Of a DNA stretch of 45,256 nucleotides, positions 1,122 to 45,143 are shown piece after piece. The stretch's first letter is position 1; each line of letters starts with the position of its first letter. The notes under the pieces are model-generated. The model ran no database searches. It was not told the DNA's origin and saw nothing but the letters and a program-made list of their open reading frames with translations. This DNA comes from an uncultured Prevotellaceae bacterium (GTDB lineage Bacteria > Bacteroidota > Bacteroidia > Bacteroidales > Bacteroidaceae). The stretch covers positions 1 through 45,256 of the forward strand of contig CAMHIM010000004.1 of assembly GCA_946185225.1 (NCBI GenBank), read 5' to 3'. The position numbers were made by a program, and so were the translations under genes.

Positions 1122-1970
1122 TTAAACGGTGTCCATGAAGCGCTGCTCCGTCCGGTTGAAGAGGATGACGGCCAGGAACATGGTGATGCAAAGGAAGACG
1201 GCGCTGTAGATGAGTCCGCCGATGGAGAAGGTGCCGACGCCTAACCAGCCGTACTTAAAGGCCTCGAAGACGGGCGACAGCGGGTTCAGGTTGATGAGCG
1301 TCTGATATTTTGCAGGAGCAAAACTCAGGGGGTAGATGACGGGCGTGGCGTACATCAGCAGTTGGACGCCGAAGCCGATGAGCATCGTCAGGTCACGGTA
1401 CTTGGTGGTCAGGGAGGTGATGATGAGGCCCCACGACATGGCGTGAAGGCCTGTCATGAGAATAAAGACGGGAATGAACACCGCCGTCCACGTCAGCGAC
1501 CACTCGAACCTGCCCGTCCACACGTAGAAGACATAGAGGATGACGAACATCAGCAACTGGATGAGTGTGTGTAACAGGTTGCTGGTGATGTTGCTCAAGG
1601 GTACGACGAGACGGGGGAAGTAAACCTTGCCGAAGACGCCCTGGTTGGCCGTGAAGATGTTGCTGCAGTTGGTGAAGCAGCCGCTGAAGTAGTTCCACAG
1701 GGCGATGCCGGCCATGTAGAACAGCGGCTGCGGGATGCCGTCGGTGCTGATGCCGGCCAGGCCGCCGAAGACGAACATGTACATGACGGTGGTCATGAGC
1801 GGCTTGATCATGTACCACAGGGGACCGAGGATGGTCTGCTTGTACTGCGTGACGAAGTCGCGGAGAATGTACATGCGGTACAGGTCGCGGTACTTCCACA
1901 GTCCTTTGATGTCGACGTCAAGCCACTTCTTCTTGGGCTTGATATGGTTGATGGTTTCGCTTGGCTTCAT
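1122..1970 (-). CDS. wzm: ABC-2 type polysaccharide export permease (Wzm-like)
   Basis: Start chosen at internal Met (MKPSETINHIKPKKKWLDVDIKGLWKYRDLYRMYILRDFVTQYKQTILGPLWYMIKPL...), typical of Wzm/TagG; the 40 upstream residues of the listed ORF are antisense to the wzc Gly-Tyr repeat region. Confidence 0.9.
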   Translation of the reverse strand: MKPSETINHIKPKKKWLDVDIKGLWKYRDLYRMYILRDFVTQYKQTILGPLWYMIKPLMTTVMYMFVFGGLAGISTDGIPQPLFYMAGIALWNYFSGCFTNCSNIFTANQGVFGKVYFPRLVVPLSNITSNLLHTLIQLLMFVILYVFYVWTGRFEWSLTWTAVFIPVFILMTGLHAMSWGLIITSLTTKYRDLTMLIGFGVQLLMYATPVIYPLSFAPAKYQTLINLNPLSPVFEAFKYGWLGVGTFSIGGLIYSAVFLCITMFLAVILFNRTEQRFMDTV

Positions 1971-1983
1971 ATATAATGGTTGG

Positions 1984-4389: not shown

Positions 4390-5171
4390 TATTTGATAAA
4401 GATGAGTGCCATGGTGGTCAGGAAGGAAGCCAGTGACATCCAGAACGTAGGCTGGTAGGCGCTGGACCCCATGACGGTGCTGTTGCGTTTGTACTTGTTG
4501 TTGGGTTCTACGTAGATGACGTCGTTCTGACGGATGTAGTAGACCGGCGAGTTGTAGACGCTCTGGCTGCTGGTCAGGTCGACACGGTAGGGCACCTGCT
4601 TGTCGCCTTCCTGGCGCATGACCAGTACGTTCTTGCGCAGACCGTCAATCTGCAGGTCGCTGGCCATGGCAATCGCCTCGAACAGCGTGATGCGGTCCTT
4701 GCTGATTTGCTTGACACCGGTTCCTGCGTTGCCCAGCACGGAGAAACTCATGTCATAGAAGGCAACGTTGACTATCGGGTCCTTGCACAGGCTGTTGCTG
4801 ATGAGCTGTTCCTTGATGGTCTTGGCCACCTGGTCGCGCGTGAGTCCTTCTATCTTGATACTGCCCAGGACGGGGAAGTCTATCTCGCCGTTGCTGTCAA
4901 CGGTGTAAGGGGCGTAGTTCTGTCCGCCGCCCTGCATGTTGTACGACCCGCCGTTTCTTCCAGAGATGTTGAACAGGTCCCTGAGCTGTTCGTCACGGCT
5001 GTGTACGAAAATGCTGAGTTTATCACCCGGCTGAAAGCGGATGTATCCGTCGCTTGGCGTCTGAATGGACTGTTGTGTGCTGACGTCCTGCAGGTAGGCG
5101 ATGTCCTGAGGCGTCTTACACGAGGTGAGCAGCGTGATGCTCGTCAAGACAAGAAAAATCCATTTCTTCAT
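4389..5171 (-). CDS. wza: polysaccharide biosynthesis/export outer-membrane lipoprotein (Wza-like, SLBB)
   Basis: 260 aa, lipoprotein signal LTSCKTPQDIAYLQD, FQPGDKLSIFVHSRDEQL..., FPVLGSIKIEGLTRDQVAKTIKEQL. Confidence 0.93.
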   Translation of the reverse strand: MKKWIFLVLTSITLLTSCKTPQDIAYLQDVSTQQSIQTPSDGYIRFQPGDKLSIFVHSRDEQLRDLFNISGRNGGSYNMQGGGQNYAPYTVDSNGEIDFPVLGSIKIEGLTRDQVAKTIKEQLISNSLCKDPIVNVAFYDMSFSVLGNAGTGVKQISKDRITLFEAIAMASDLQIDGLRKNVLVMRQEGDKQVPYRVDLTSSQSVYNSPVYYIRQNDVIYVEPNNKYKRNSTVMGSSAYQPTFWMSLASFLTTMALIFIK

Positions 5172-26245: not shown

Positions 26246-27232
26246 ATGAAGAATATATCCTATTGGACGCAGTTTGGAAAAGGCTTCTCACGCTGGTGGC
26301 TCTACATCCGTAGTTTCGGTAACTACTTCCTGGTGCCACGCTTCCTGTATCGTCTCAGACTGAACTCGCTGCTCCGTTCCTTGTCAGAGGAGGACCGCGA
26401 CTACGTACAGCGGCGTGTGGAGTATTATAACCGCCTCACGCAACCCATGCGCCTGAGTGATGCCTGTCAGGTGCGTGATTACCATTTCCCCTTCGGTCAG
26501 AAGAAGAAACTGACCAAGTACTTCTTCGACCTGTACGAGGTGGTCCGTTACTTCTCGCCTCGTGCTGCTTTCTGTTACCTTTTCGGTGATGTGACGACAG
26601 TTCCCGCCCAGCCAACGTTTGTCAAAAGCCGTCCGATACATGGGGAAAACGCCAACGCTGTGTTGCTGAAGCTGAATAAGTGGCGTCACTTCCGTTTCGT
26701 GAACGACAAAATGTCCTTTGCGGAAAAGAAGGACATGCTGGTAAACCGAACCACCTGGGCTAATGCAAACCCGCTGCGCAGAACCCTGAACGAAAAGTTC
26801 TGCCAACATCCGATGTGCAACGTCGGAAAGACGCGAATGGAGGAGGGCGAGCAGTTGCCGGAAAGCGTAAAGGGCTTCTTGAATATCCCCCAGCAGTTGG
26901 AGTATAAGTTTATTGCCTGTATCGAGGGTAACGATGTGGCTACGAGCCTGAAGTGGGTCATGTCGTCAAACTCCATCGCCGTTTCGCCTCCCCTGAACTA
27001 TGAGACGTGGTTCATGGAAGGGACGCTCATTCCCGACTATCATTTTATTGAAGTGAAGCCAGATTACTCTGATTTGATTGATAAGATGAACTACTACATC
27101 GCTCACCCGAAGGAGGCGGAGGCTATTGTACGGCATGCTCACGAGTATGTGCAGCAGTTCCTGGACAAACGCCGTGAGCGCATCATCCAGCTGATGGTGG
27201 CAGACAAGTATTTCAAGATGACCCAATGCTGA
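26246..27232 (+). CDS. glycosyltransferase family 90 (CAP10/LpsA-like)
   Basis: 328 aa; YKFIACIEGNDVATSLKWVMSSNSIAVSPPLNYETWFMEGTLIPDYHFIEVKPDYSDL is typical of GT90. Confidence 0.88.
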   Translation: MKNISYWTQFGKGFSRWWLYIRSFGNYFLVPRFLYRLRLNSLLRSLSEEDRDYVQRRVEYYNRLTQPMRLSDACQVRDYHFPFGQKKKLTKYFFDLYEVVRYFSPRAAFCYLFGDVTTVPAQPTFVKSRPIHGENANAVLLKLNKWRHFRFVNDKMSFAEKKDMLVNRTTWANANPLRRTLNEKFCQHPMCNVGKTRMEEGEQLPESVKGFLNIPQQLEYKFIACIEGNDVATSLKWVMSSNSIAVSPPLNYETWFMEGTLIPDYHFIEVKPDYSDLIDKMNYYIAHPKEAEAIVRHAHEYVQQFLDKRRERIIQLMVADKYFKMTQC

Positions 27233-27240
27233 AAGAGCCT

Positions 27241-28002
27241 ATGGCGCAGAAGACGATATATATTAACAGCCGTTTTCAGGACAGTTCTCCTTTCCTGGAG
27301 CAGATTCCTTCCCTGCTGACAACACAAGGGCGGGTGGTTCAAGATGGTCGTAATCTCATCAAGGTGCTTACGTTGCCTGATGGGACAGAGGTCAATGTGA
27401 AACGTTATCACAAGCCTCACGGAATCAATACAATGGTTTACTCTCTTGGCCTAAGAAAACCTAAGGGGGCACGCGCCTATCTTCATGCTGTCCGTCTGAT
27501 GGAGCATGGCTTTGAGACCCCGGAGCCAGTAGCATATATTGAGGAACGGAAACGTGGATTGCTGGAGTATTCCTACTTCGTGAGTCTGCAGTGTCCCTAT
27601 CGGCACAAAATGTATGAATGGGGCAATGCCGAAGAGGGGACCTACGAGGATTTTGCCAAGGCCTTTGGACGGTATAGTGCCCGACTGCATGAGGCCGGCA
27701 TCCTGCACCGCGACTATACGCCGGGCAATGTGCTGTGGGAACAGTGCGGTGAAGAGTACCGCTTCTCTTTGGTAGACATCAACCAGATGGACTTCGGTCC
27801 TGTCTCCTGGCGTAAGGGATGCCGGAATATCTGCAAGTTCTGGGGCCCCAAGCGTTTTGTCGCTTTGGTGGCAGAGGCCTATGCCGATGCAAGAGGCTTC
27901 GATGTTGAAAAGACTGTAAAAAACGTCATGCAGCATCGCCAGGCCTTTTGGAAACGATATGCGCGAAAGCACTCCGTCATAACGTTTAATCTGGAAATGT
28001 AA
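27241..28002 (+). CDS. lipopolysaccharide kinase (KdkA/InaA-like)
   Basis: Start at MAQKTIYINSRFQD; kinase-like catalytic loop LHRDYTPGNVLW and VDINQMDF; VKRYHKPHGINTMVYSLGLRKPKGARAY. Confidence 0.85.
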   Translation: MAQKTIYINSRFQDSSPFLEQIPSLLTTQGRVVQDGRNLIKVLTLPDGTEVNVKRYHKPHGINTMVYSLGLRKPKGARAYLHAVRLMEHGFETPEPVAYIEERKRGLLEYSYFVSLQCPYRHKMYEWGNAEEGTYEDFAKAFGRYSARLHEAGILHRDYTPGNVLWEQCGEEYRFSLVDINQMDFGPVSWRKGCRNICKFWGPKRFVALVAEAYADARGFDVEKTVKNVMQHRQAFWKRYARKHSVITFNLEM

Positions 28003-31892: not shown

Positions 31893-33158
31893 ATGGACAG
31901 GAAGATAAGAATATTGTATCTCGGCGTTGACGATAACCCGACCCCTGGCCATGTTCTCCATGCCTTTCAGCGCGTATTACCAGAATACGAGGCTCATCTG
32001 ATTATCAAGAGTTCTCATCACGGCAACGACCAGTATGTGCTGTACCCCAATCGTTTTATCCGTAACCTGAAGAAGATGACGCGGCGTAACCTGTGGACGC
32101 GGTTGCAGTGGTGGTTCCGCTATGGCATTTTCCCTAAGGTGGACAAGTCGTGCCCTGAGTATCACTTCAAGGGAAACGAACTCTTGGGATATAGTGCGAA
32201 AGACATCCTGCGCCGTTGTCCGGAAGGCTTTGTGCCTGACGTGATTGCCGTCTATTGGTCCTCGGGCTTTGTGTCGGCCCGCATGCTCCGTGAACTTCAC
32301 GACCTGACAGGAGCAAGGATTGTCTATTTCTGTGTTGACGAGGCTCCTTTGACAGGTGGCTGCCACTATCCGTTCGAGTGCAAGGGCTTTCTGCAGGACT
32401 GTCGTGACTGTCCTGCTCTGCTGCGCGGCAAGCGGTTAGCTACTATTCAGCTGGAGCTGAAACGCCGTTATCTCTCCGGCATTCCTTTATATGTTGTCTG
32501 CAGTCCTTACGATGCCATGCTGGCACCTCAATCGACCGTATTCCGTCATGCGAAGGCCTTAACGACAGTGGGACGTCCTCCCGTCACTTTCACCCCTCGT
32601 GCTGAGGCGCGCCGTCGTTTCTCGTTGTATGACGGTGCCTTTGTGGTAATGATGGGAGCCATGGGTACGCAGGAAAAACGTAAAGGGTTCTCCTATGCTG
32701 CTGATGCGCTGAACGAGGCGGCACGGCAGATACCTAACCTTGTTGTCCTGATAGCAGGCAATGCTAATGAACAATTCAAGCAACGGCTTCTGTCAGTCAA
32801 CTGCCACTATGTGGGAGTCCTGTCCTTGGACGACCTGTACAAGGCGTTCTGTGCGGCAGATGCGTTCCTTAGTCCGACGATTGCCGACAGTGGCCCGATG
32901 ATGGTCAATATGGCATCTGCCTTGGGCACGCCGACCATCTCGTTTCCCATCGGGGTTGCAGTCGCTTTGGTACGTCACAAGGAAACGGGCTATGTGGCCC
33001 GCTACAAAGACTCCAAAGACTTGTCAGAGGGACTGTGTTATCTGCATTCACTCTCTGACGACGAGCGTGCAACCATGTCGCGCCGTTGCCAACAAGTGCT
33101 TGACGAGGAGGCAGGACGCGGTACCTCACTCCAACAGCTGCTGAAGGAGTTCCGTTAA
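31893..33158 (+). CDS. glycosyltransferase family 4
   Basis: Start at MDRKIRILYLGVDDNPTPGHVLHAFQRVLP (4 bp after the previous stop); C-terminal LSPTIADSGPMMVNMASALGTPTISFPIGVAVALV. Confidence 0.85.
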   Translation: MDRKIRILYLGVDDNPTPGHVLHAFQRVLPEYEAHLIIKSSHHGNDQYVLYPNRFIRNLKKMTRRNLWTRLQWWFRYGIFPKVDKSCPEYHFKGNELLGYSAKDILRRCPEGFVPDVIAVYWSSGFVSARMLRELHDLTGARIVYFCVDEAPLTGGCHYPFECKGFLQDCRDCPALLRGKRLATIQLELKRRYLSGIPLYVVCSPYDAMLAPQSTVFRHAKALTTVGRPPVTFTPRAEARRRFSLYDGAFVVMMGAMGTQEKRKGFSYAADALNEAARQIPNLVVLIAGNANEQFKQRLLSVNCHYVGVLSLDDLYKAFCAADAFLSPTIADSGPMMVNMASALGTPTISFPIGVAVALVRHKETGYVARYKDSKDLSEGLCYLHSLSDDERATMSRRCQQVLDEEAGRGTSLQQLLKEFR

Positions 33159-33161
33159 TTG

Positions 33162-34295
33162 TCAGACACCATAGAATGTCAGTATGTGCCCGATAATCTC
33201 CTTGACTTCTTCGTCCTTTAGCTCGTAGTACATGGGAAGCCTTACCAGCGTGTCGGCGTATCGGTCACACTCTGGAAGGGTGGGGATGTCCTCGTTGTGC
33301 TTCCGGTAGTAGTCGCTCAGGTGTAGGCTGAGGTAGTGGAATACTGCGGTAATGTGCCGTTCCTTCAGGTATGCAATGAGTCGGGTCCGTTCTTCCAAAG
33401 AGCGACACAGCAGGTAGAACATGTGTCCGTTGTTGGTGGCATTCTTGCCGATGACAGGGAGTGTCGCCAGTCCCTTCGCCTCCAGTACGGCCAGCCTCTG
33501 CCGGTAGCATTCCCAGATGTGTTTCCTTCGCTGCTGTATGACGTCCAGATTCTCCAGTTGTGCCAGCAGGAAGGCACTGTTGATTTCTGACGGCAGGAAT
33601 GACGAGCCCGTATCCACCCATCCATATTTGTTCACCATGCCGCGGAAGAATTCCGCGCGATTGGTGCCTTTCTCCCAGATAATCTCTGCCCGACGGACGA
33701 ACTGCTCTTCGTTGACGACCAGCAGTCCTCCCTCTCCGCCTGCCGTGACGTTCTTCGTCTCGTGGAAGGAGAAACAGCCGAGGTGTCCTATACTTCCCAG
33801 CGGACGTCCCTTGTAGTAGGAGTCGATGGCCTGTGCGGCATCCTCGACCACCAGCAGGTGGTGCCGATGTGCGATGTCCATGATGCGGTCCATGTCACAT
33901 GCTACACCGGCATAGTGTACTGGTACGATGACGCGTGTCCGTTCGGTGATAAGGCTCTCTATCTTGCCGGCGTCAATGTTGGGGTTGTCCGTACAACTGT
34001 CGGCAAAGACAATCTTTGCCCCTTGCCGTACAAAGGCCAGGGCTGACGATACGAAGGTGTAGGAGGGAACAATGACTTCGTCGCCCGGCTGGATGTCGCA
34101 GAGGATGGCAGCCATCTCCAGCGCATCGGTTCCTGATGTTGTCAGGAGACACTTGCGGAAGCCGTATCTTTTCTCGAAAAACTCTTGGCACTTCTTGGTA
34201 AAGGCTCCGTTGCCCGACAGCTTACCCGTGTAGACTGCCTGGTACATGTAGTGTGCCTCTTTGCCGGTGAGGAAGGGTTTGTTGAATGGTATCAT
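33162..34295 (-). CDS. wecE: dTDP-4-amino-4,6-dideoxygalactose transaminase-like (WecE/RffA; DegT/DnrJ/EryC1/StrS family)
   Basis: 377 aa; MIPFNKPFLTGKEAHYMYQAVYTGKLSGNGAFTKKCQEFFEKRYGFRKCLLTTSGTDALEMAAIL, PLP lysine region CFSFHETKNVTAGGEGG. Confidence 0.92.
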   Translation of the reverse strand: MIPFNKPFLTGKEAHYMYQAVYTGKLSGNGAFTKKCQEFFEKRYGFRKCLLTTSGTDALEMAAILCDIQPGDEVIVPSYTFVSSALAFVRQGAKIVFADSCTDNPNIDAGKIESLITERTRVIVPVHYAGVACDMDRIMDIAHRHHLLVVEDAAQAIDSYYKGRPLGSIGHLGCFSFHETKNVTAGGEGGLLVVNEEQFVRRAEIIWEKGTNRAEFFRGMVNKYGWVDTGSSFLPSEINSAFLLAQLENLDVIQQRRKHIWECYRQRLAVLEAKGLATLPVIGKNATNNGHMFYLLCRSLEERTRLIAYLKERHITAVFHYLSLHLSDYYRKHNEDIPTLPECDRYADTLVRLPMYYELKDEEVKEIIGHILTFYGV

Positions 34296-35434
34296 GATAT
34301 GTACTTATAGTATTCGTCAATAAGATTTATAATGCGCGGTTTGATGGGACGTTGAAGCGGTGCCTGAAAGGAGTGGTGTCCACCTACATCGTTGCCTTCA
34401 ATCATTAGCCATCCTTTTGTTGAGAAGGCCAGGTCCCATGCTATCATTATTGCTCCCTCGACGGTGAGGGCCATTTCCTTTGTAAGTTCCACAGCTTTTT
34501 CCCATTGCGGGATGGTAAATCCCCGAAACATTATTTGGCTGTCGGGGTGTTTTGTATAGAGTCTTCCAGTATCGTCGCATCCGTCGGAGATGACAGTCCC
34601 GTTCTGTTCATCAACTGTAGCATAAACTCCTCCAGTTCCGGCGTTGTCAACATTTGATGTACCCTGTCCGGTACGTAGTGATGCTCCGAAGATGGTGACA
34701 TTCCCGTTGACGGTGAAGGTGGCCAGCCGCAGGGTATTGATACTTTCAGGATGTAGCTTTTTCATCTCGTCTGCCTGACTGATGAGTTCCTCTACGACGA
34801 ACTTCCAGTTGACATTCCGGGCGATGGCAGCCAACGTGTCGGAGTCCTCATGCCGGATGTCGTGATATATCCGGATGCCCTGTCCTGAGTGTCCCTGTGT
34901 CGGCTTGCAGATGAAGGACGGATGTTTTTTGACGAACTCCCGGAAGGTCTCTATGTCGCTTTCCCCGTTTATCTCCATGAGGTCGCGCTTGTAGAAGCGT
35001 TGGAAGGTCTTGTAGCATGCTCCCTTGTCTTCAAAGAGCTGCCGTATGTTAGGGGAGTTTACCAGTTCGCAGTAGCCGTATTGCATCTTCAGCGTATTGA
35101 ACTGAACTCGCTCCTCTGCATTGCGTTCGTAGAAGCGGTAGAGGAAATAGTCTTCAAAGGTAGCCCCGAAGCGGTGCAGACTGTAGGTCATGTCCTTCCG
35201 TAACTGTTTCTTGTTGAGTCTGCATTCCTTGTTGTCGGCATGTTTCGCTATCTCCCGATTCATGAGCGGCAGCCCTTTTCGATAGTATGCCGTGTCAAGG
35301 AGGCGGTAGTAGAGTACATACAGACTTTTCCACCAATCGCTATGGTCGGCCCGTTGTGCAAGCCAGTTCTCCAGCGGGGAGTCTATCTTCCAGCGGCTGA
35401 TGGACTTTGCTATGGTAAAGTATTTTTCTTTCAT
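34292..35434 (-). CDS. sugar-transfer-associated ATP-grasp protein
   Basis: 380 aa; FICKPTQGHSGQGIRIY, FVVEELISQADEMKKLHPESINTLRLATF, AWDLAFSTKGWLMIEGNDVGGHHSFQ; 4-bp ATGA overlap with wecE-like gene. Confidence 0.83.
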   Translation of the reverse strand: MKEKYFTIAKSISRWKIDSPLENWLAQRADHSDWWKSLYVLYYRLLDTAYYRKGLPLMNREIAKHADNKECRLNKKQLRKDMTYSLHRFGATFEDYFLYRFYERNAEERVQFNTLKMQYGYCELVNSPNIRQLFEDKGACYKTFQRFYKRDLMEINGESDIETFREFVKKHPSFICKPTQGHSGQGIRIYHDIRHEDSDTLAAIARNVNWKFVVEELISQADEMKKLHPESINTLRLATFTVNGNVTIFGASLRTGQGTSNVDNAGTGGVYATVDEQNGTVISDGCDDTGRLYTKHPDSQIMFRGFTIPQWEKAVELTKEMALTVEGAIMIAWDLAFSTKGWLMIEGNDVGGHHSFQAPLQRPIKPRIINLIDEYYKYIS

Positions 35435-35440
35435 GTTCGT

Positions 35441-36676
35441 TCACTCCCAGACGATGCCCTTGGCTGTTTCTGTCCCGTCGGTTACCTCAGCTTGTAGTAT
35501 CTGCTGGACGAGATGTATGTTGTTTTCCAGTTCTTCTCTATCTTTGCCGGAAACCAGGATAGGTCCCTTTCGTGCTCCCTTATAAGTAGGTGGTTCCGTC
35601 CCCTTTCCAATTACGACGTCTTCTATATATGCTGCCTTGACGAAGGGGAAACTCTTCAGGAGGTCAATGTCCGAGACGTTCCTGATGATACCTTCTGGCA
35701 GGTAGAAGCAGACGTAGGCAGCAGCCCTGTCTGTTCTCTTTGCCAGCATCGCCTCCATGTCAGATTCTATTCCTAATGCCCTGTCTAACAGGAATCCCGT
35801 GACGTCAATGCCGGTGGCCATAGGGACGATATCTGAGGAAATATAAACGCCGCCGCCTCGGAGGGCACTTTCCACAATACAGATGTCGCCCGTAGCCTCG
35901 TTGACAAGGTATTCGGAATGTACGATGGCGAAAGCGGGACGGCTGGCTGCGGTCAGTGCCTGTTCGTAGCCGATGATACGTTCCAGAAACTGTTCGTTGA
36001 GTGTTGAGGGGAAGAGTGTCTGACTGGGTATCATGACGTTCGGCAGGTCGAAGTAGCGTCGGTCGCCCAATAGGAGCGGATAGTAGCGCCCGTGGTCAAT
36101 GAGCCCCTCACATACAACTTCTTTGCCACTGACGTATTCCTCAACGATGGCCGTGTGGGTGGGTGATTTTGCCAATGCCTCATGGACGGCCGTCATTGCC
36201 TGTTCCGCTGTCTCCACCTTCTTTACTCCGATGCTTGACTGCGAGTCGGCTGGCTTTACCATCCAGGGCAGTGGGGCATTAAAGAACGTTACGTCACCGG
36301 CTGTCCCTATGTGGGCGTGTCGCGGACCAGGAACCCCCGTTCTGTCGCAGAGGTCGCGAAAGCGGTTCTTGTCGCAATAGGTCATTACGGTGTCGAAACT
36401 GTTCCCCGGTAGCCCGAGCTTTTCGGCCACGTAAGCCACCGTCGGCATCATCAGGTCGTTCTGGTCGGACGTTACGGCGGTAATGCCTCGCCGTCGGGCC
36501 TCCTCAACGATGGCGTCGCGGTCGTAGATATTGGTATAGATGACATCGTCTGCCAGCTGGAAGCATGGGTAAGGGCCTGGTATGGACGCCACGGTGACAT
36601 GTATGCCCCGTTGCTGTGCTTTCTTGAGTAAGGGTACTTGGCCTATTCCAGCCCCGATGATGAGTAGTTTCTTCAT
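35441..36676 (-). CDS. ATP-grasp (carboxylate-amine ligase / CPSase-like) protein
   Basis: 411 aa; GAGIGQVPLLKKAQQRGIHVTVASIPGPYPCFQLAD, MVKPADSQSSIGVKKV, IVEEYVSGKEVVCEG, ICIVESALRGGGVYISSDIVP. Confidence 0.85.
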   Translation of the reverse strand: MKKLLIIGAGIGQVPLLKKAQQRGIHVTVASIPGPYPCFQLADDVIYTNIYDRDAIVEEARRRGITAVTSDQNDLMMPTVAYVAEKLGLPGNSFDTVMTYCDKNRFRDLCDRTGVPGPRHAHIGTAGDVTFFNAPLPWMVKPADSQSSIGVKKVETAEQAMTAVHEALAKSPTHTAIVEEYVSGKEVVCEGLIDHGRYYPLLLGDRRYFDLPNVMIPSQTLFPSTLNEQFLERIIGYEQALTAASRPAFAIVHSEYLVNEATGDICIVESALRGGGVYISSDIVPMATGIDVTGFLLDRALGIESDMEAMLAKRTDRAAAYVCFYLPEGIIRNVSDIDLLKSFPFVKAAYIEDVVIGKGTEPPTYKGARKGPILVSGKDREELENNIHLVQQILQAEVTDGTETAKGIVWE

Positions 36677-36681
36677 GCTGG

Positions 36682-37806
36682 CTATGGTAGGACGAGTTTG
36701 TGGTCAGACTGATAGATGAGGTATCCGCTGCGGTCGGCGCTACAGGTGATGTTTCTCAGCTGGTCGTCGGTGATGGCGGCTTCAACGATGGAAGGATAGT
36801 CTTTCCATCGTTCGATGACGGCTTTCAAGTGTCGTGTCTCTTCGGCGAGGAAATAGACGCCGGAATAGCGGTGTGTGGTAAGGACAGGCTCATGGAACTC
36901 TCCCAGTGCAACCTCGATGACACCGCGCAGGAAGTCGTACCCTGTGGACAGCCGGACGAGGTCGGAGCCAATGAAGTCTCCTCCCATGCGGGCACCGATT
37001 TCAATGATACGAATTTCGCCTTCTTGGGTGATTTTCAGTTCCGAGTGCGATGCGCCGAACTCAATGTGCAGTGCCTTTAGGGCCTTTCTTACGATGTCGC
37101 GTATGCGCTGTTGTACGTCGGCGGGCAGTGAGGATGGCTGATGGTGCTCCAGTTCCACGAAGAAGGGTGCCCCGGTGGTTACCTTGTCGGTTATCTGGAG
37201 AATGTGGTGTTGTCCCTGGAAGGAGATGGCTTCTACGCTGACCTCGCAGCCCTCGACGAACTCTTCGACGATGGCTGTGTGTTCGAACGACTCCCCTTGG
37301 GCTCTTTTTATGGCATCGGGCATTCGCTCCGGCAGCAGCACCTTCTCCACTCCCCGGCTTCCGGAGCGGTCGGTAGGCTTCACGATGACTGGCATCCGCA
37401 TTCCGTCCAGGTTATAATGGTCCCCTTGGGCAACGCGCAGGAAGCGGGGGGAGGGAATGTCATTGTCGGCAAAGCAGCGGCGCATGAGGAACTTGTTGGT
37501 AGTAACGGCCGTGTAGTTGTCGGGATTGGCAGTCAGTCCCATGCGTGTTGCGACGTAGTTGACGGTAACCACGGCGGTGTCGGAGGCGATGGTGGTAATG
37601 CCGTCGATGTGCTCCTCGCGGCAACGTTCCAGAATCAGTTCTTTCTCGATGATGGAGATGGGGTAGAAACGGTCGACGTAGTCGGCACAGACGGCACCGT
37701 CCCTCCAGGCGAAGCAGATGACCTCTAGTCCCATCTCCTTGGCCTTCCTGACGACGGGTAGCTGCAGATAGCTTCCGCCGATGACAGCGAGTTTCTTATG
37801 GTTCAT
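36682..37806 (-). CDS. ATP-grasp (carboxylate-amine ligase / CPSase-like) protein
   Basis: Start at MNHKKLAVIGGSYLQLPVVRKAKEMGLEVICFAW, giving a 4-bp ATGA overlap with the upstream gene; VIVKPTDRSGSRGVEKV, IVEEFVEGCEVSVEAISFQG, IIEIGARMGGDFIGSDLV. Confidence 0.85.
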   Translation of the reverse strand: MNHKKLAVIGGSYLQLPVVRKAKEMGLEVICFAWRDGAVCADYVDRFYPISIIEKELILERCREEHIDGITTIASDTAVVTVNYVATRMGLTANPDNYTAVTTNKFLMRRCFADNDIPSPRFLRVAQGDHYNLDGMRMPVIVKPTDRSGSRGVEKVLLPERMPDAIKRAQGESFEHTAIVEEFVEGCEVSVEAISFQGQHHILQITDKVTTGAPFFVELEHHQPSSLPADVQQRIRDIVRKALKALHIEFGASHSELKITQEGEIRIIEIGARMGGDFIGSDLVRLSTGYDFLRGVIEVALGEFHEPVLTTHRYSGVYFLAEETRHLKAVIERWKDYPSIVEAAITDDQLRNITCSADRSGYLIYQSDHKLVLP

Positions 37807-38636
37807 CCCTCCAGCCATTTGTAGTATGCCTTTTTGTAGCGTTTCAGGTAGTGCTTGACAGGGCGCTTCTTCTCGTGTCTGCAACGCTGTATGTTGCGTA
37901 TCCGCTGTACCTCCTCGTCCGAGTAGCGTCCGCGGAGCTTCAGGTATTCAGCGATGAACTGCTCCACGGTGCCCATCTTCGGGTTCATGAGGATGAGGTC
38001 GGGCAGTACTGTCTCCATGTCCAGCACTTGGTGCTCGTCATAGAAGCGTGCGCGGTTGGTGTCAATCATGCAGAACTGCCAGGGCCCGTCGGGCGTCTCC
38101 TGTCGGCAGAGCACATTGCCGCAGTTCATGTCGCGGTACAGGATGCCGTGCTCATGCATGCTTTTCAGGTGTGCGGCAAACTGGTGGATGAGCGGGTCGA
38201 TGATGTCTTTCCGTCCCTCCTCCTGCAAGCGTATGACGAGATGGTCCAGCCGTTCGCCGCGTCCCACCTCCGAGACAAAGAAGGCATACTGATAGAAGCC
38301 GTGGTTCCACACTTCCACATAGGCCAGCTCTTCAGCCGCCTCGAAGCCGCGTCGGCGCAGCTCTTCCGTATTCTCGAAGGCCTTGCGGCATTTGGGACGC
38401 CGGATGTAGGTGTAGTCAAACTTCTGGAAGAAGAAGAGACCGTGGTAGCGTTTTACCATCACCTCGCTGAGTCCTTCGACACCCATCGTGCTGACATCCA
38501 TGATGCGCAGCCGGTTGCGTGCCGTGTGTATCTCGTTGCCCGTGGTGTTGAACGTGTCGGGCAGCCCGTTCAGGAATCGGTCGAAGGTTTCGTTGCCTTC
38601 TATGCGTTTGCTCTTGACAATCCTCAGTGTTAGCAT
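37803..38636 (-). CDS. lipopolysaccharide kinase-like protein (InaA/KdkA family)
   Basis: 277 aa; catalytic loop LYRDMNCGNVLC, MIDTNRARF; resembles the 27241..28002 product (VKRYHGLFFFQKFDYTYIRRPKCRKAFENT vs VKRYHKPHGINTMVYSLGLRKPKGARAYLHA). Confidence 0.82.
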   Translation of the reverse strand: MLTLRIVKSKRIEGNETFDRFLNGLPDTFNTTGNEIHTARNRLRIMDVSTMGVEGLSEVMVKRYHGLFFFQKFDYTYIRRPKCRKAFENTEELRRRGFEAAEELAYVEVWNHGFYQYAFFVSEVGRGERLDHLVIRLQEEGRKDIIDPLIHQFAAHLKSMHEHGILYRDMNCGNVLCRQETPDGPWQFCMIDTNRARFYDEHQVLDMETVLPDLILMNPKMGTVEQFIAEYLKLRGRYSDEEVQRIRNIQRCRHEKKRPVKHYLKRYKKAYYKWLEG

Positions 38637-38648
38637 GATGACAGAATC

Positions 38649-39347
38649 TTAGAGATGTAACAGGTGTGGCAGGTCGTCAATCCGCTGTAGCCTGGTCAGT
38701 CGCTCGTGGTCGAACTCCTCCGTGTGCTCCAGTTGCCACGTGACGTGGAACGGTATGTAGACGGCCCATGCACCTATGGCCAGTGCGGGTGCAATGTCGG
38801 AACGGAAAGAGTTGCCCACCATCAGCAGCTGGGTGGACAAGATGTCCTCCCGCTGGCACAGTTCGCGAAACTCCCGTTGTGTCTTGTCTGACGTGATGAC
38901 GACGTCATCGAAGTACTTGAGCAGACCGGAGCGTTGCAGCTTGTTCTCCTGATCCTGCAGTTCGCCCTTGGTGAAGCACACCAGCCGGTAGGGGCCTTCC
39001 TGCAGTTTGGCGAGAACCTTGACGACGCCCGGCAGTGGTGTGGCGGGCAGATGGAGCAACTGCTTGCTGTGAGCCAGCAGGTCGGCGAGTTCGGCTGCCG
39101 TAAGGTGTTCGCCGCCGACGCGCAGGGCTGTCTCTATGATGGAGATAGTGAATGCCTTACAGCCGTAGCCCAGGTCGTCCATGTTGCCCTTCTCGGTGAC
39201 GAAGAGTTCCCGTGCAGGGTCTTCGCAATAGGGTGCGATGAGACGGTAGAGGTGTTGCTCTACCGCCTCGAAGTGTGACTGACAATCCCATAGGGTATCG
39301 TCGGCATCGAAGGCTATGACACTGATAGGAGTCGCTCTTCCCTGCAT
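38649..39347 (-). CDS. HAD-superfamily hydrolase (YjjG-like)
   Basis: 232 aa; IAFDADDTLWDCQSHFE (motif I), VCFTKGELQDQENKL (motif II), VGNSFRSDIAPALAIG (motif IV region). Confidence 0.9.
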   Translation of the reverse strand: MQGRATPISVIAFDADDTLWDCQSHFEAVEQHLYRLIAPYCEDPARELFVTEKGNMDDLGYGCKAFTISIIETALRVGGEHLTAAELADLLAHSKQLLHLPATPLPGVVKVLAKLQEGPYRLVCFTKGELQDQENKLQRSGLLKYFDDVVITSDKTQREFRELCQREDILSTQLLMVGNSFRSDIAPALAIGAWAVYIPFHVTWQLEHTEEFDHERLTRLQRIDDLPHLLHL

Positions 39348-39354
39348 GCCTGGT

Positions 39355-40686
39355 TTAGAAGAACAAGAGGGTGAGCGTGTAGCTCACGATGGTGCTGACG
39401 CAGACACTGATGAGTCCGGGCATCATGAACGAGTGGTTCAGCAGGTACTTGCCGATGACGGTCGTTCCTGACCGGTCGAAGTTCACCGTAGCAATGTCCG
39501 ATGGGTAGTTCGGAATGAAGAAGTATCCGTAGACGGAGGGAAACACGCCCAGCAGCACGGTGCCGGGGATGTCCAGCGAGTAGGCCAGCGGCAGCATGGA
39601 TACGACGACGGCTCCCTGGGAATTGATGAGTACTGAGACAGCAAAGAACACCAGTGCGATGGACCACGGGTACTCCTTGACGACCTCTTCCAGCATGCCC
39701 TGAATCTCAGGCATATAGTTGGAGAAGTAGGTGTCGGCCATCCATGCGATGCCGTAGATGGCGACGACGGCCACCATGCCCGACTGCCATACGGGTCCTG
39801 CCACGGCTTTCTTGGGTTGCGCCTTGCAGAAGAGAATCATCAGCGCGGCAGCGGCAATCATGACAATCTGGATGACGATGTTCATCTTCAGCGGCTTGCC
39901 GTCCCATGAGGGCAGCATATTCTGGAAGATGGCGAAGAAGACGATGACGGCCAGTGCTCCGAGGAACACGAATACGGCGTTCTTGGCCGACTGCGGAATC
40001 TCCTTGTCGAGCGTAGTGGCCGACGAGCCGTAGATGTACTCGCGCTGCTGCGGGTCCTGCAGCTTCTTCTGGAACTGCGGGTCCTTGTCCAGGTCCAGTC
40101 CGCGGCGATAGCTGGCAGCGGCGGCAGCCATCAGTCCGCACAGACAGGCCGGTATGCTGACCATGAGGACGCCAGGTATGCTGATGGGGAATCCGTTCTC
40201 GTTGGAGATGGTGACGAAAGCCACCACGGCGGCAGCGATGGGTGAGCAGGTGATGCCCACCTGCGAGGCTATGGAGGCCACGCCGCAGGGACGCTCCGGG
40301 CGTATTCCTTTCTTCAGGGCAATGTCACAGATGATGGGCATCAGGGTGTACACCACGTGGCCCGTACCGACGAGCACCGTCAGGAAGAACGTGCAGAGGG
40401 GAGCCAGGAAGGTGATGCGGTCGGGGTGCTTGCGCAGCATCTTCTCGGCTATCTGGATGAGCCAGTCCATGCCGCCCGATGCCTGCATGATGCCCGCGCA
40501 GGTGACGGCGGCGATGATGATGTAGATGACATCTGTCGGAGGCGTACCGGGTTTCAGTCCGAAGCAGAATACGAGAATGGCCAGGCCGATGCCGGAGATG
40601 GCACCGAGAGCCAGTGAGCCGTAGCGTGAGCCCACCCAGAGAGCTCCCAGGACAATGAGGAGCTGCAGAATCATAACGAGTGACAT
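39355..40686 (-). CDS. dcuB: anaerobic C4-dicarboxylate transporter (DcuA/DcuB family)
   Basis: 443 aa polytopic protein; LLIVLGALWVGSRYGSLALGAISGIGLAILVFCFGLKPGTPPTDVIYIIIAAVTCAGIMQASGGMDWLI, GTGHVVYTLMPIICDIALKKGIRPERP. Confidence 0.94.
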   Translation of the reverse strand: MSLVMILQLLIVLGALWVGSRYGSLALGAISGIGLAILVFCFGLKPGTPPTDVIYIIIAAVTCAGIMQASGGMDWLIQIAEKMLRKHPDRITFLAPLCTFFLTVLVGTGHVVYTLMPIICDIALKKGIRPERPCGVASIASQVGITCSPIAAAVVAFVTISNENGFPISIPGVLMVSIPACLCGLMAAAAASYRRGLDLDKDPQFQKKLQDPQQREYIYGSSATTLDKEIPQSAKNAVFVFLGALAVIVFFAIFQNMLPSWDGKPLKMNIVIQIVMIAAAALMILFCKAQPKKAVAGPVWQSGMVAVVAIYGIAWMADTYFSNYMPEIQGMLEEVVKEYPWSIALVFFAVSVLINSQGAVVVSMLPLAYSLDIPGTVLLGVFPSVYGYFFIPNYPSDIATVNFDRSGTTVIGKYLLNHSFMMPGLISVCVSTIVSYTLTLLFF

Positions 40687-40895: not shown

Positions 40896-43385
40896 CTATT
40901 GCTTACCGAAGTAGCTGTAACGGTTGTTGTCAGGGTTGACCACAATGTTTTCCACCACGATTTCCGGATCTATCATGATGAGCCTCAGCTTGTGTTTGCC
41001 GGAAGTGACATTATTGAGGTTGACCTCCAGCCAGCGGATATTGTCGAATACCTCGTCGCGGCGGAGCATCTTGCGACCGTCCTTCCAGCCACTGAGCAAC
41101 AGGTTGTTATGGGGTGGCAGGGGCTTCAGTTTTTTCGACTGTGCAAGGTTCTTGGGCGTGTACTCGCCGAACTCGTCGTGCAGTCCCTGACGGGCGTCAA
41201 TGGTCTGCATGGGCTGGTCGTCTATCTGTACACCGAGACGCAGACCACGGGCAGGGTAGATGTCCTGCGTGGGCAGGATGCCGATGGCCACAGTGCCCTT
41301 GCCGTCCACAGGAGACAGGTTGATGTCGTACTCCAGCACAGGGCCGTCGCCATTGGGGTAACTCTTCATCACGTCGGCAGCACCCATGCAGCCTTCATAG
41401 CGACCAAGGTTGGGCAAGAATATCCAGCCCTCGTCGCTATTTGTAAACTCCTTGGCACCGATGGAATACTCCTTCGTATCGTTCGAGGCACCGAGGTCGT
41501 GGCTGACCTTGTAGCCCAGGTCCATCGGATTCGTGTTCTTATCGGGAATGCTCCACTTGGTATAGCCGATGTGGTTGTCGAGCATCATGCCGTCCCACTT
41601 TCCGCCAGCCAGCACTTTGTTGTAATAGTCGGTGAGCCGTTGGTCTTTCTTCATCAGTTCGTTGACGGTCTCACGACTGCCCATGGTGGCAGCGTTGTAC
41701 ATCATTGCCACACCGGCACTGGCCACAGCAGGATAGTAGACCAACTGGTAGAAGGCATCCTGCGCTTCAGCGGGAATCTGCTCTTTTAAGGCTTCGCAAC
41801 GCAACACGATTCTCTGCCACTGATTGTTCAGAAGGAGCATCTCCTCGTAGTTGAAGAGGCCAGGCACCTGCACCTCGGGCTTGCGCAAGAGGTTCAGCTT
41901 CGAGTATTGGGCAATGACGTGGGCACACTCGTTGGTTATTTCGGTGGGCAGACCAGCGAACACGGAATGCGTCCATGCTCTCAACCACTCTTCTTCCTGG
42001 CCTGACTGGGTGCGCTCAGGCTTCCACGCGTAGTCCATGATGAACGAGATGGGCATCTCCTTGGGTTTCAGGTCGCCCACGTTGATGATCCAGATACGGT
42101 CGATGCCGCTCTGATAGGCTTGGTTCAGCTGTTCGCGCAACTTGGGTACGGTGGTGGTGTTTACCCAGCGGTCGTTCCACGGGCCGCCGTTCATGTCGAT
42201 GTGGTAGTAGAGACCCAGTCCGCCCTTGCGCTTGCGCTCGGCTTCGGTGCCCTTGCGGCGTATGTAGCCCCAGTTGTTGTCGCAGAATAGTAATGTCACG
42301 TCGTCGGGCACGGTGAAGCCGGCATCGTAGTAGCGCTGCACTTCGGTGAAGATGGCCCACAGCTGGGGCACGGCATCGGGACGGCCGTAGATGTCTTTGA
42401 TAATCTTGCGCTGTCCCTCGATGACGTTCTTCAGCGTCTGCATGTTCTCCTGGTCGTCGCCCTTGCCCATGGCCACGTCGCCGTCGCCACGCATGCCGAT
42501 GGTCACGAGGTTGTCGTAGGCCTTGTTGCGCTCCATTCCCTCACGGAAGAACTGGTCGACGCGCTCCTTGTTGGTGGCGTAGTCCCACGGGCCAACCTGC
42601 TCTTTGCGGTGCAGGTATTCCTGGTGCGAACGCATCATCGGCTCGTGGTGACTGGTTCCCATGACGATGCCCATCTCGTCGGCCACTCTGGGGCTCTCGG
42701 GGTCATCCTCGTTGAAGGCCGTGGCCCACATGGCCGGCCAGAAGTAGTTGGCTTTCAGGCGCAGCAGCAACTCGAAGATTTTCTCGTAGGCCTTGGAGTT
42801 CACGCCGCCGAAGTGCTTCTGGCACCATGTGCCGAACGAAGGCCACTCGTCGTTGATGAAGATGCCGCGGTACTTCACCGCCGGCCACTCCTCCTGATAG
42901 CTGTCGAAGTACAACTCGTCCTTGTGAGCCACAGGCGCATCGGCCATCCAGTACCAGGGCGAGACGCCTATCTGGCGTGAGACCTCGTAGATGCCGTAGA
43001 TGGTGCCGCGCCTGTCATTGCCGGCGATGACGAGGTTGCCGTCCACGTTGTCGATGACGTAACCTTCCCAGTGACCCTTTATCTTCTTGACGTCGAGTTT
43101 CTTCTGCTTGATGAGCTTGTCGATGAGACGGCTCTGGCCGATGGTGCCGACGATGATGCTGCCGTTAGCGGCATTGGTGCTGCTGACTACGGTGCTGGCA
43201 GTCCCCGTCACTTTCCGTATGTCGTCACTCAGGTTGTTGACTGCCCGCAGCACGCCCTTGCAGTCGTTCTTGTCAACAACGATGGGTGCTGTCGTGCCCT
43301 TGCTGGCAATGCAGAAGCGCTCCTGCTGTGCCGTTGCGGTCAGCACAGCGATGAGGGCAAGGATAAATGTCAGTATCCTTCTCAT
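40896..43385 (-). CDS. glycoside hydrolase family 115 (alpha-glucuronidase, glucuronoxylan-type)
   Basis: 829 aa, signal peptide; VKYRGIFINDEWPSFGTWCQKHFGGVNSKAYEKIFELLLRLKANYFWPAMWATAFNEDDP, GIVMGTSHHEPMMRSHQEY are GH115 hallmarks. Confidence 0.93.
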   Translation of the reverse strand: MRRILTFILALIAVLTATAQQERFCIASKGTTAPIVVDKNDCKGVLRAVNNLSDDIRKVTGTASTVVSSTNAANGSIIVGTIGQSRLIDKLIKQKKLDVKKIKGHWEGYVIDNVDGNLVIAGNDRRGTIYGIYEVSRQIGVSPWYWMADAPVAHKDELYFDSYQEEWPAVKYRGIFINDEWPSFGTWCQKHFGGVNSKAYEKIFELLLRLKANYFWPAMWATAFNEDDPESPRVADEMGIVMGTSHHEPMMRSHQEYLHRKEQVGPWDYATNKERVDQFFREGMERNKAYDNLVTIGMRGDGDVAMGKGDDQENMQTLKNVIEGQRKIIKDIYGRPDAVPQLWAIFTEVQRYYDAGFTVPDDVTLLFCDNNWGYIRRKGTEAERKRKGGLGLYYHIDMNGGPWNDRWVNTTTVPKLREQLNQAYQSGIDRIWIINVGDLKPKEMPISFIMDYAWKPERTQSGQEEEWLRAWTHSVFAGLPTEITNECAHVIAQYSKLNLLRKPEVQVPGLFNYEEMLLLNNQWQRIVLRCEALKEQIPAEAQDAFYQLVYYPAVASAGVAMMYNAATMGSRETVNELMKKDQRLTDYYNKVLAGGKWDGMMLDNHIGYTKWSIPDKNTNPMDLGYKVSHDLGASNDTKEYSIGAKEFTNSDEGWIFLPNLGRYEGCMGAADVMKSYPNGDGPVLEYDINLSPVDGKGTVAIGILPTQDIYPARGLRLGVQIDDQPMQTIDARQGLHDEFGEYTPKNLAQSKKLKPLPPHNNLLLSGWKDGRKMLRRDEVFDNIRWLEVNLNNVTSGKHKLRLIMIDPEIVVENIVVNPDNNRYSYFGKQ

Positions 43386-43398
43386 GGCAAGTGGTTTT

Positions 43399-44919
43399 TT
43401 ATCGTTTCATCATGACAACCCTGGAGTTGCCGTTGGTGTCTCGCTCAATACAGAGTCCGTGGGGCCTGTCCAGCCGCCGGCCCTGCAGGTCGTAGTAGCT
43501 CTTGGCACTGGCGACGTTCGTGCGCCTGGTCTCGCGGAGGGCCGTGCTGCCTTTGTCTATCATGAAGATATACGTGTTCAGGCTGCGGGCGGGCAGGTCA
43601 ACCGTCACGTCCTTCGTCGGCTTGTCAAGGACGATGGGTGCTTCCTGGCAGAGGTTCTTGGTCTCGTTGCCCGTTGACAGCAGGTGTGTTCCGCTCTTCA
43701 CCTCGACGGGCAGGATGATGTTCAGGCTGTGGCCGGTCTTCGTGGTGTCGATAGCCATGACGATGAGCGAGTCGCCCTTGACGTATGCCGAATACTCAAA
43801 ACCGGCTCCCTCGCCGCTGGTCTTGTCGCGCGAGGTAGTCAGACGGGTGGAGCCCGTGACGTGCTTGGCGAAGTGGGACATGACGAAGGCGCGTGGCAGC
43901 AGCTTGTTCTTCGTGTTGGTCATGGTGCCGACGTTATACTTTGTCTCGCCCGTACCCACAAAGCCCCAGTGGGCCCGCATGTACCAGTAGATGTAGCCTG
44001 TGCAGCCGGCCAGCATGCACTCGTTCAGTTCCTCCGCGAAGATGAGCTGCTCGTGCCAGTTGGGCAGGTGGTCAATGTTGTCGGTGCAGGAGTGCTCGGT
44101 CATCCATACCTCCTTGCCGTACTTCGCGGCAAGGACGGCTGCACTCTTCATGTTCCCGTCCTTCAGGGGTGCATGGCCGTAGAGGTGTCCTGCCACGATG
44201 TCAATGTGCTTGCGACAGGTCGCGTCCTTCATCAGTGCGTCAGAATAGTTCTGGGTGAAGCCCAAAGGCTCTGCGCTGATGAGCCGCACGCCGGGGTAGG
44301 TCTCGCGGTCCAGCATGGAGGCATAGTTCTTGACGAGTGTCACCTGGTCCTCTGGGTCGTATAGGCAGCCGGAGTAGCTCACCCACCAGTCCGGCTCGTT
44401 CTGTATGGATACGGCATCCACGTTCACGCCCTTGGACTTCATGTACTTCAGGTAGGAGTTCAGCCAGGGGAAGAACTTCTCGTAGCAGTCGGTGCGCAGC
44501 TTGCCCCTTTGGTATCCCTGGCTTTCGCTGTTGCCGCCCTGGGCCACGCCGTTGGTCTTATAGGAGCCAGGGGGTGACCAGGGTGTACCGAAGACGATGC
44601 CGCCCCGTGCTTTCACAATCAGGGCCGACGGCACGCAGCCCTGCCAGTTGTAGTTAGTCCATGATGCATTCTCGTCGCCCTTGAAGCTGGGCGAGATTTC
44701 CATGCGCATGATGTTCAGTCCGATTTTCGACGTTGGGCCGTAGAGCAGTTCCACGGGCTTGGTGTCAGTACCGTAGGGGTACATGGCTCCGTCGCAGCAG
44801 GCGGCGCCGAAGCCGGTGATGGTCTGCATGCGGGTGTTGTACACCTCAAGTGGGATGACTGCTGCGTGACCGGCTGTGGTGGCAGCCAGCAGCATCATGG
44901 AGGCAAGAAACTTTTTCAT
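43399..44919 (-). CDS. glycoside hydrolase family 30 enzyme (likely xylan-active)
   Basis: Start MKKFLASMMLLAATTAGHA; ITGFGAACCDGAMYPYG, LNIMRMEISPSF, VDAVSIQNEPDWW, EVWMTEHSCTDN; adjacent to GH115. Confidence 0.85.
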   Translation of the reverse strand: MKKFLASMMLLAATTAGHAAVIPLEVYNTRMQTITGFGAACCDGAMYPYGTDTKPVELLYGPTSKIGLNIMRMEISPSFKGDENASWTNYNWQGCVPSALIVKARGGIVFGTPWSPPGSYKTNGVAQGGNSESQGYQRGKLRTDCYEKFFPWLNSYLKYMKSKGVNVDAVSIQNEPDWWVSYSGCLYDPEDQVTLVKNYASMLDRETYPGVRLISAEPLGFTQNYSDALMKDATCRKHIDIVAGHLYGHAPLKDGNMKSAAVLAAKYGKEVWMTEHSCTDNIDHLPNWHEQLIFAEELNECMLAGCTGYIYWYMRAHWGFVGTGETKYNVGTMTNTKNKLLPRAFVMSHFAKHVTGSTRLTTSRDKTSGEGAGFEYSAYVKGDSLIVMAIDTTKTGHSLNIILPVEVKSGTHLLSTGNETKNLCQEAPIVLDKPTKDVTVDLPARSLNTYIFMIDKGSTALRETRRTNVASAKSYYDLQGRRLDRPHGLCIERDTNGNSRVVMMKR

Positions 44920-44953
44920 GGATATTGTTATGCTGGGTTGTTCTTTCAGGTTG

Positions 44954-44961
44954 CAAAGATA
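44954..44961 (-). promoter_or_regulatory. candidate -7 element TATCTTTG for the GH30/GH115 operon
   Basis: Forward CAAAGATA, ~35 bp upstream of the GH30 start. Confidence 0.55.
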
Positions 44962-45143
44962 GGTGTCTTTTCCTATGCGTACCATATGAATGGTCCCATC
45001 ATCTTGCCTAAATGTCTCATGTACGTACGACGGTGGTCTGCATGCAACAAAAAGAAATGTTATCGAGACGTTTCCTTTCGCATTGCATGGTGCGCAAGGA
45101 GTGCCGGCATTGCATCTGTTTCACGACCCGTTTTTCCTTGTCG

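Follow-up and report, generated by a model that had tools for sequence, protein, structure and literature searches.

A WecE-linked ATP-grasp gene cassette in a Prevotellaceae genome: a candidate for N-aminoacylation of a cell-surface 4-amino sugar

Synthesis of the nucleotide sugar dTDP-4-amino-4,6-dideoxygalactose (dTDP-Fuc4N) is the established chemistry of the WecE family. N-acylaminoacyl 4-amino-4,6-dideoxyhexoses, including those of 4-amino-4,6-dideoxyglucose (Qui4N), occur in O-antigens (PMC3210612), and for clostridial loci ATP-grasp ligases have been predicted, on the basis of gene neighbourhoods, to attach peptide or amino-acyl groups to the amino sugars of surface polysaccharides (Das et al., 2014, PMC4000134). 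As both this prediction and this chemistry precede our analysis, the idea of an amino-acyl group on an amino sugar is not new. Such groups are also described for the type IX secretion system (T9SS), where the linking sugars of Porphyromonas gingivalis and Tannerella forsythia bear serine or glycine, with VimA as the proposed transferase (PMC7468200). The T9SS linker of Prevotella intermedia, which lacks VimA and VimE, is an N-alanyl deoxyhexose, the biosynthesis of which was called unknown in 2025 (PMC11969387). In the literature searched we found neither an ATP-grasp enzyme described for Fuc4N or Qui4N nor a WecE-linked ligase, which we regard as weak evidence. Here we describe a gene cassette encoding a WecE aminotransferase and three ATP-grasp proteins, named AG1, AG2 and ATPgrasp_ST, in a window of 45,256 nucleotides (contig CAMHIM010000004.1). 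The window is one contig of a metagenome-assembled genome (MAG) of a gut or rumen member of the Bacteroidales, an uncultured Prevotellaceae bacterium (2.03 Mb, 67% complete).

An earlier note on this DNA had described a compact cluster of five genes, consisting of these four and a gene resembling lipopolysaccharide (LPS) kinases, and had proposed that it could attach amino acids or another carboxylate to a 4-amino sugar. The compact cluster was confirmed, including the ATGA overlaps and the families (WecE, three ATP-grasp proteins and a Kdo/WaaP-type kinase). The conserved unit is AG1/AG2/ATPgrasp_ST/WecE, and on balance we favour the reading that it is an accessory cassette with which the cell makes an N-aminoacylated 4-amino-4,6-dideoxy sugar for its surface (N-aminoacyl-Fuc4N).

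WecE and its genomic link to AG1

Based on profile and structure matches, the gene at 33162..34295 is assigned with confidence as WecE. It scored above the curated equivalog cut-offs of both NF008687 (565.5 compared to 375 bits) and TIGR02379 (516.5 compared to 434.85 bits), and it matched the solved dTDP-Fuc4N transaminases 4piw/6blg over the full length (E=1.4e-126). The residues H178, T180 and K181 of the HETK motif, which binds pyridoxal phosphate, were kept in 66/66 aligned sequences.

Genomes were scanned with the AG1 alignment and the best 80 of 127 loci were examined, with AG1 being found in 76/80 by our own gene calls. The 80 loci were nearly all from Bacteroidota; one was from an Ignavibacteriae MAG and one was labelled only 'uncultured bacterium'. 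WecE (at least 60% identity) was present in 63 of the 76 loci, on the same strand in each of them (63/63) and downstream of AG1 in 62/63. In most of the 13 loci without it the contig stops shortly after AG1, and four of the 13 (L078, L111, L133, L135) had a WecE-like gene with 37-43% identity. The order AG1-(X)-AG2-ATPgrasp_ST-WecE was observed in four further loci, belonging to a Prevotellaceae MAG (L070), Bacteroides caecigallinarum (L073) and two Alistipes MAGs (L098, L104), where X stands for either an acyltransferase-3 protein or a protein resembling M28 peptidases and is placed between AG2 and ATPgrasp_ST in L098; in L117 the order was AG1-AG2-WecE. As the full order recurs in four loci of several families, the grouping is more than chance. 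The M28 peptidase-like gene was seen inside the cassette at L073:1315-2271 and L098:9792-10673. The full unit is rare, since besides the window no complete four-gene module was detected among 393 genomes of the order (E<=1e-100); AG2 was found in no other of these genomes. The identities of AG1 and WecE were correlated in a Mantel test (r=0.68, 0/1000 permutations), but we did not treat this as proof, given that a correlation of this kind can arise from shared species history.

In genome G141, AG1 and WecE were fused in frame into one protein of 756 aa with both halves complete (L038:8322-10592, minus strand). This fusion is known from a single MAG, and an assembly or sequencing error is possible. 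In addition, 57 loci with AG1 and WecE were compared with 16 WecE loci from the same family without AG1 in reach, one of which (L171 in genome G137) has AG1 on another contig. A WecD- or PseH-like GNAT acetyltransferase was present in 8/16 of the AG1-less loci compared to 1/57 of the AG1 loci (Fisher p=8e-6), and in 6/14 compared to 1/57 when near-duplicate loci were collapsed (p=1.3e-4). The best match of the WecD-related GNATs was NF008212, under its cut-off. The clearest swap was between the order ArnC-like glycosyltransferase (GT2) - GNAT - EamA - EamA - WecE in L160 and L161 and the order AG1 - GT2 - EamA - EamA - WecE in L109 and L118. Together, the fusion, the GNAT contrast and this swap suggest that AG1 acylates the amine of the WecE product, and AG1 appears to replace a WecD-type acetyltransferase. 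The Arn-like set beside WecE, consisting of an ArnC-like GT2 and two small EamA proteins (one ArnE-like), was observed in L071:11126-12719, L160 and L161, and it suggests a lipid-linked, flipped version of the sugar.

The ATP-grasp proteins and the predicted reaction

AG1 matched PF13535 with 78.4 bits and gave profile matches to 4dim, 3vot and BacD/YwfE. Among ATP-grasp proteins, the nearest relatives of both AG1 and AG2 were L-amino acid ligases and the uncharacterised 4dim. In the alignment, E218, H221, E256, E269 and R273 of AG1 coincided with BacD residues of the 'FTETSH', 'THTE' and 'ESAAR' motifs, and these five residues and D277 were invariant in 77/77 sequences. We take the aligned BacD residues to be the amino-acid and Mg binding site, and the E...H pair shared by AG1 and BacD presumably contacts the amino group of the donor amino acid. 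The donor used by AG1 would most likely be an amino acid. The invariant Asp277 occupies the position of BacD Trp332, which was reported to be important in substrate recognition (PMC6920838), and AG1 therefore need not prefer alanine.

The AlphaFold2 model of AG2 had a predicted local distance difference test score (pLDDT) of 90.9, and its best folds were 4dim and 3vot, the L-amino acid ligase BL00235 (template modelling (TM) score 0.83). K141, E255 and R273 of AG2 were invariant and position 269 was E or D. ATPgrasp_ST matched PF14397, the 'sugar-transfer associated ATP-grasp' family, with 176 bits compared to a gathering cut-off of 31.4. Its residues K177, E215, R236, D334, E346 and N348 were invariant, including the Mg/ATP residues D334, E346 and N348. 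No sequence relative of ATPgrasp_ST was found in the PDB; its AlphaFold2 model (pLDDT 78) gave Foldseek matches to Ddl, ArgX, RimK and PsnB with modest TM scores of 0.40-0.57. Loss of catalytic residues, which the earlier note had named as a sign against its proposal, was found in none of the three ATP-grasp proteins. Tandem proteins of approximately 770 aa, with AG1 fused to a second ATP-grasp domain, were present in five loci (L114, L131, L136, L139 and L145; for example L136:9998-12322), and they suggest two ligations in series. A relative of ATPgrasp_ST with one in-frame TGA, either a broken gene or a sequence error, was seen at G180:C33:13317-14165 (L032), adjoining an AG2 (47%), an AG1 relative and another DegT gene.

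In the mechanism that we propose, WecE, the family assignment of which was tested, would make dTDP-Fuc4N as the nucleotide sugar of this organism. AG1 would then convert the carboxylate of an amino acid to an acyl phosphate and transfer the acyl group to the 4-amine of the sugar, at the point where WecD would otherwise add acetyl; this step is suggested by the fusion, the gene replacement and the conserved residues. More tentatively, AG2 and ATPgrasp_ST would probably ligate further carboxylates or amino acids, resulting in a short acyl or peptidyl chain. The adjacent glycosyltransferase (GT4) probably moves the finished sugar onto LPS or another surface glycan. The order in which AG2 and ATPgrasp_ST would act, what the GT4 does and which polymer results are parts that we infer. 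Of the earlier proposal, the idea that an ATP-grasp enzyme joins a carboxylate (most likely from an amino acid) to the amine of the WecE product gained support from the WecE linkage, the fusion, the WecD-type replacement and the residue conservation, whereas the exact substrate, the amino acid and the final glycan stay predictions.

The gene run and its surroundings in the window

The minus-strand run consists of seven genes (Table 1). All five genes of the cluster lay on the minus strand where the earlier note had placed them; for AG1, listed as 36682-37884, the start was moved to the ATG at 37806, giving 374 aa. The ATGA overlaps were exact at 34292-34295 (WecE/ATPgrasp_ST) and 37803-37806 (AG1/kinase), and the gaps were 6 bp between ATPgrasp_ST and AG2 and 5 bp between AG2 and AG1. 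The co-directional run goes on upstream of the kinase, with the HAD gene 12 bp away and the Dcu gene 7 bp from the HAD gene.

Table 1. Positions in the window and supporting matches of the genes of the run and of the facing glycosyltransferase gene.
Gene	Position	Strand	Supporting matches and remarks
WecE, dTDP-4-amino-4,6-dideoxygalactose (Fuc4N) transaminase	33162..34295	-	NF008687, TIGR02379, 4piw/6blg, HETK motif
ATPgrasp_ST, sugar-transfer-associated ATP-grasp ligase, RimK/ArgX/Ddl-like fold	34292..35434	-	PF14397
AG2, L-amino-acid-ligase-like ATP-grasp, probable second ligation	35441..36676	-	PF07478, PF13535, LAL_C2
AG1, L-amino-acid-ligase-like ATP-grasp, proposed ligase for the 4-amine of the WecE product	36682..37806	-	PF13535
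Kdo/WaaP-type kinase	37803..38636	-	PF06293
HAD-family hydrolase	38649..39347	-	PF00702, 51.8 bits
DcuA/DcuB anaerobic C4-dicarboxylate transporter, first gene of the run	39355..40686	-	PF03605, 465.9 bits
GT4 glycosyltransferase, convergent with WecE	31893..33158	+	PF13692/PF00534; start corrected from 31764

The convergent GT4 may also belong to the conserved unit, being inverted here, and is a candidate transferase for the modified sugar. The closest relatives of this GT4 were found beside WecE or at most three genes from it in L069 (42%), L171 (38%), L157 (37%), L080 (34%), L163 (32%) and L141 (31%), and a search of 39 further genomes from the genus gave no match at E<=1e-40.

The kinase, HAD and Dcu genes had no counterpart in the 80 AG1 loci (best 80 of 127). 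The kinase reached the wider PF06293 family (33.7 bits compared to a cut-off of 21.3), with the DxNxGN and MID motifs present, but not the KdkA equivalog cut-off (NF002475, 28.9 compared to 142 bits), and its relatives within the genus were only 26-35% identical. Because it has no counterpart in the AG1 loci and only such distant relatives in the genus, the kinase was rejected as a member of the unit. The LPS-kinase-like gene, which the earlier note had counted into the function of the cluster, thus stands outside the conserved unit, although it overlaps AG1 by ATGA. The window holds two Kdo/WaaP-type kinases with approximately 32% identity, this one (37803-38636) and one at 27226-28002 in an LPS-core-like cluster. 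The latter cluster spans 22-33 kb of the window and includes KdtA, an LpxL-like acyltransferase, a KdsB-like protein, GT4s, a GT90, the kinase and a GT9. A polysaccharide export set (ABC-2 permease, Wzc-like and Wza-like genes) is located at the other end of the window (1122-5171), and a GH115 glucuronidase and a GH59/GH30-like hydrolase adjoin the run (40896-44985).

Alternative explanations and comparison with described systems

Several observations weigh against aminoacylation by the cassette. AG1 stayed under every NCBIfam amino-acid-ligase cut-off (49.4 compared to 850 bits for the BacD model NF053745), and it appears to resemble L-amino acid ligases in its residues but to fall outside the named ligase families. 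In the AG2 orthologs no E or H was found at the positions aligned with the E...H pair of AG1 and BacD, and AG2 may therefore use a different donor, not necessarily an amino acid. No GNAT was found within a few kb in half of the WecE loci lacking AG1, so that the replacement is statistical and not absolute, and a NeuD/PglD-type acyltransferase was present in several AG1 loci too. Neither a polymerase nor a flippase was found beside the cassette within the window. Also RmlA and RmlB, for the supply of the WecE substrate dTDP-4-keto-6-deoxyglucose, gave no match above cut-off in the 67%-complete MAG; we count this result as neutral for a dTDP sugar because the genome is incomplete.

We consider it unlikely that AG1 instead uses a carboxylate other than an amino acid, such as a hydroxy acid or a dicarboxylate, to acylate the amino sugar made by WecE. 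Non-amino acyl groups on Qui4N, for example 3-hydroxybutyryl, are known (PMC3210612), the first gene of the run encodes a C4-dicarboxylate transporter, and the invariant Asp277 at the position of BacD Trp332 would also fit a different donor. However, every residue that aligns with the BacD amino-acid site is retained by AG1 in 77/77 sequences, and the Dcu gene was not found in other AG1 loci. It is quite unlikely that the three ATP-grasp proteins form a free peptide, or a carboxamide at another place in the glycan, with WecE being a mere cluster neighbour. ATP-grasp enzymes are widespread in polysaccharide loci, where their partners vary, and other DegT aminotransferases lie near many AG1-like proteins, but the in-frame fusion, the near-obligate linkage and the swap with a WecD-like GNAT point to the WecE product.

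The earlier note had also suggested a link with T9SS, which was a reasonable idea given the known aminoacyl linkers. The cassette would then make the linking sugar, and PorU would join cargo C termini to the alpha-amine of aminoacyl-Fuc4N, as with the N-alanyl-deoxyhexose of P. intermedia. The predicted product has the right chemistry, the biosynthesis of the P. intermedia linker was called unknown and that species lacks VimA and VimE (PMC11969387), and the genome described here carries PorU and PorP/K/L/M/N genes. However, the T9SS genes of the window (PorP/SprF, FGE-type, GldL, GldM and GldN) are located at 6.1-12.3 kb, approximately 21 kb from the cassette. The PorU sortase was found in 155 and close AG1 orthologs in only 7 of 201 genomes of the family, with one of the 7 (G191) having no PorU match, and among 12 other genomes sampled from the same genus PorU was present in 12/12 and AG1 in 0/12. 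As a linker without which cargo could not be attached would be expected to match the sortase in frequency, the special link was not borne out and we consider a linker role of the cassette, which these counts do not support, very unlikely. Prevotella intermedia was not among the 80 AG1 loci (best 80 of 127). We also consider it very unlikely that AG1-WecE is one of several interchangeable routes to an aminoacylated T9SS linking sugar, with a related pair of DegT and ATP-grasp proteins making the N-alanyl-deoxyhexose linker of P. intermedia. With AG1 being rare and sporadic, PorU common and AG2 absent from the other genomes of the order, the sporadic spread is most likely the pattern of an accessory surface-glycan cassette.

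The pathway by which alanine is placed on a deoxyhexose was called unknown in 2025 (PMC11969387), and as a predicted source of N-aminoacyl-Fuc4N the AG1-WecE pair is a concrete candidate for a reaction of that type. The candidate reaction is testable, as both enzymes are soluble, a single substrate is predicted and the two occur as a natural fusion. If confirmed, the pair would be a genomic marker by which surface glycans with aminoacyl groups, possibly zwitterionic ones, could be predicted in Bacteroidota of the gut and rumen.

In comparison with described systems, the clostridial loci of Das et al. (2014) are of the sialic-acid type and include a DUF4910 protein, whereas WecE, the fusion and the replacement of WecD belong to the loci described here. 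The Wbp/Vim pathway of P. gingivalis and T. forsythia likewise results in an amino acid amide-linked to an LPS amino sugar (N-seryl or N-glycyl), and there the GNAT-like VimA was proposed to put the amino acid on a 2,3-diamino uronic acid once VimE has removed the acetyl group (PMC7468200). The cassette, in contrast, combines an ATP-grasp ligase with a dideoxy sugar and does not correlate with T9SS. With the Arn pathway, which leads to 4-amino-4-deoxyarabinose on lipid A, some AG1 loci have in common an ArnC-like transferase (178.7 bits compared to a cut-off of 529) and an ArnE-like small transporter beside WecE; the window has a GT4 and no Arn-like set, and the modification would be N-aminoacylation, not N-formylation. 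AG1 agrees with BacD/YwfE and BL00235 in its fold, in its ATP-grasp residues and at the positions that align with their amino-acid donor site, but the proposed acceptor of AG1 is a nucleotide-sugar amine and not a second amino acid, AG1 is below the family cut-offs and AG2 has no E...H pair. As in the WecE/WecD branch of enterobacterial common antigen (dTDP-Fuc4NAc), a true WecE would supply the 4-amino-4,6-dideoxygalactose nucleotide sugar for subsequent N-acylation at the 4-amine; the rest of that pathway does not adjoin the cassette, which has an ATP-grasp ligase in place of WecD.

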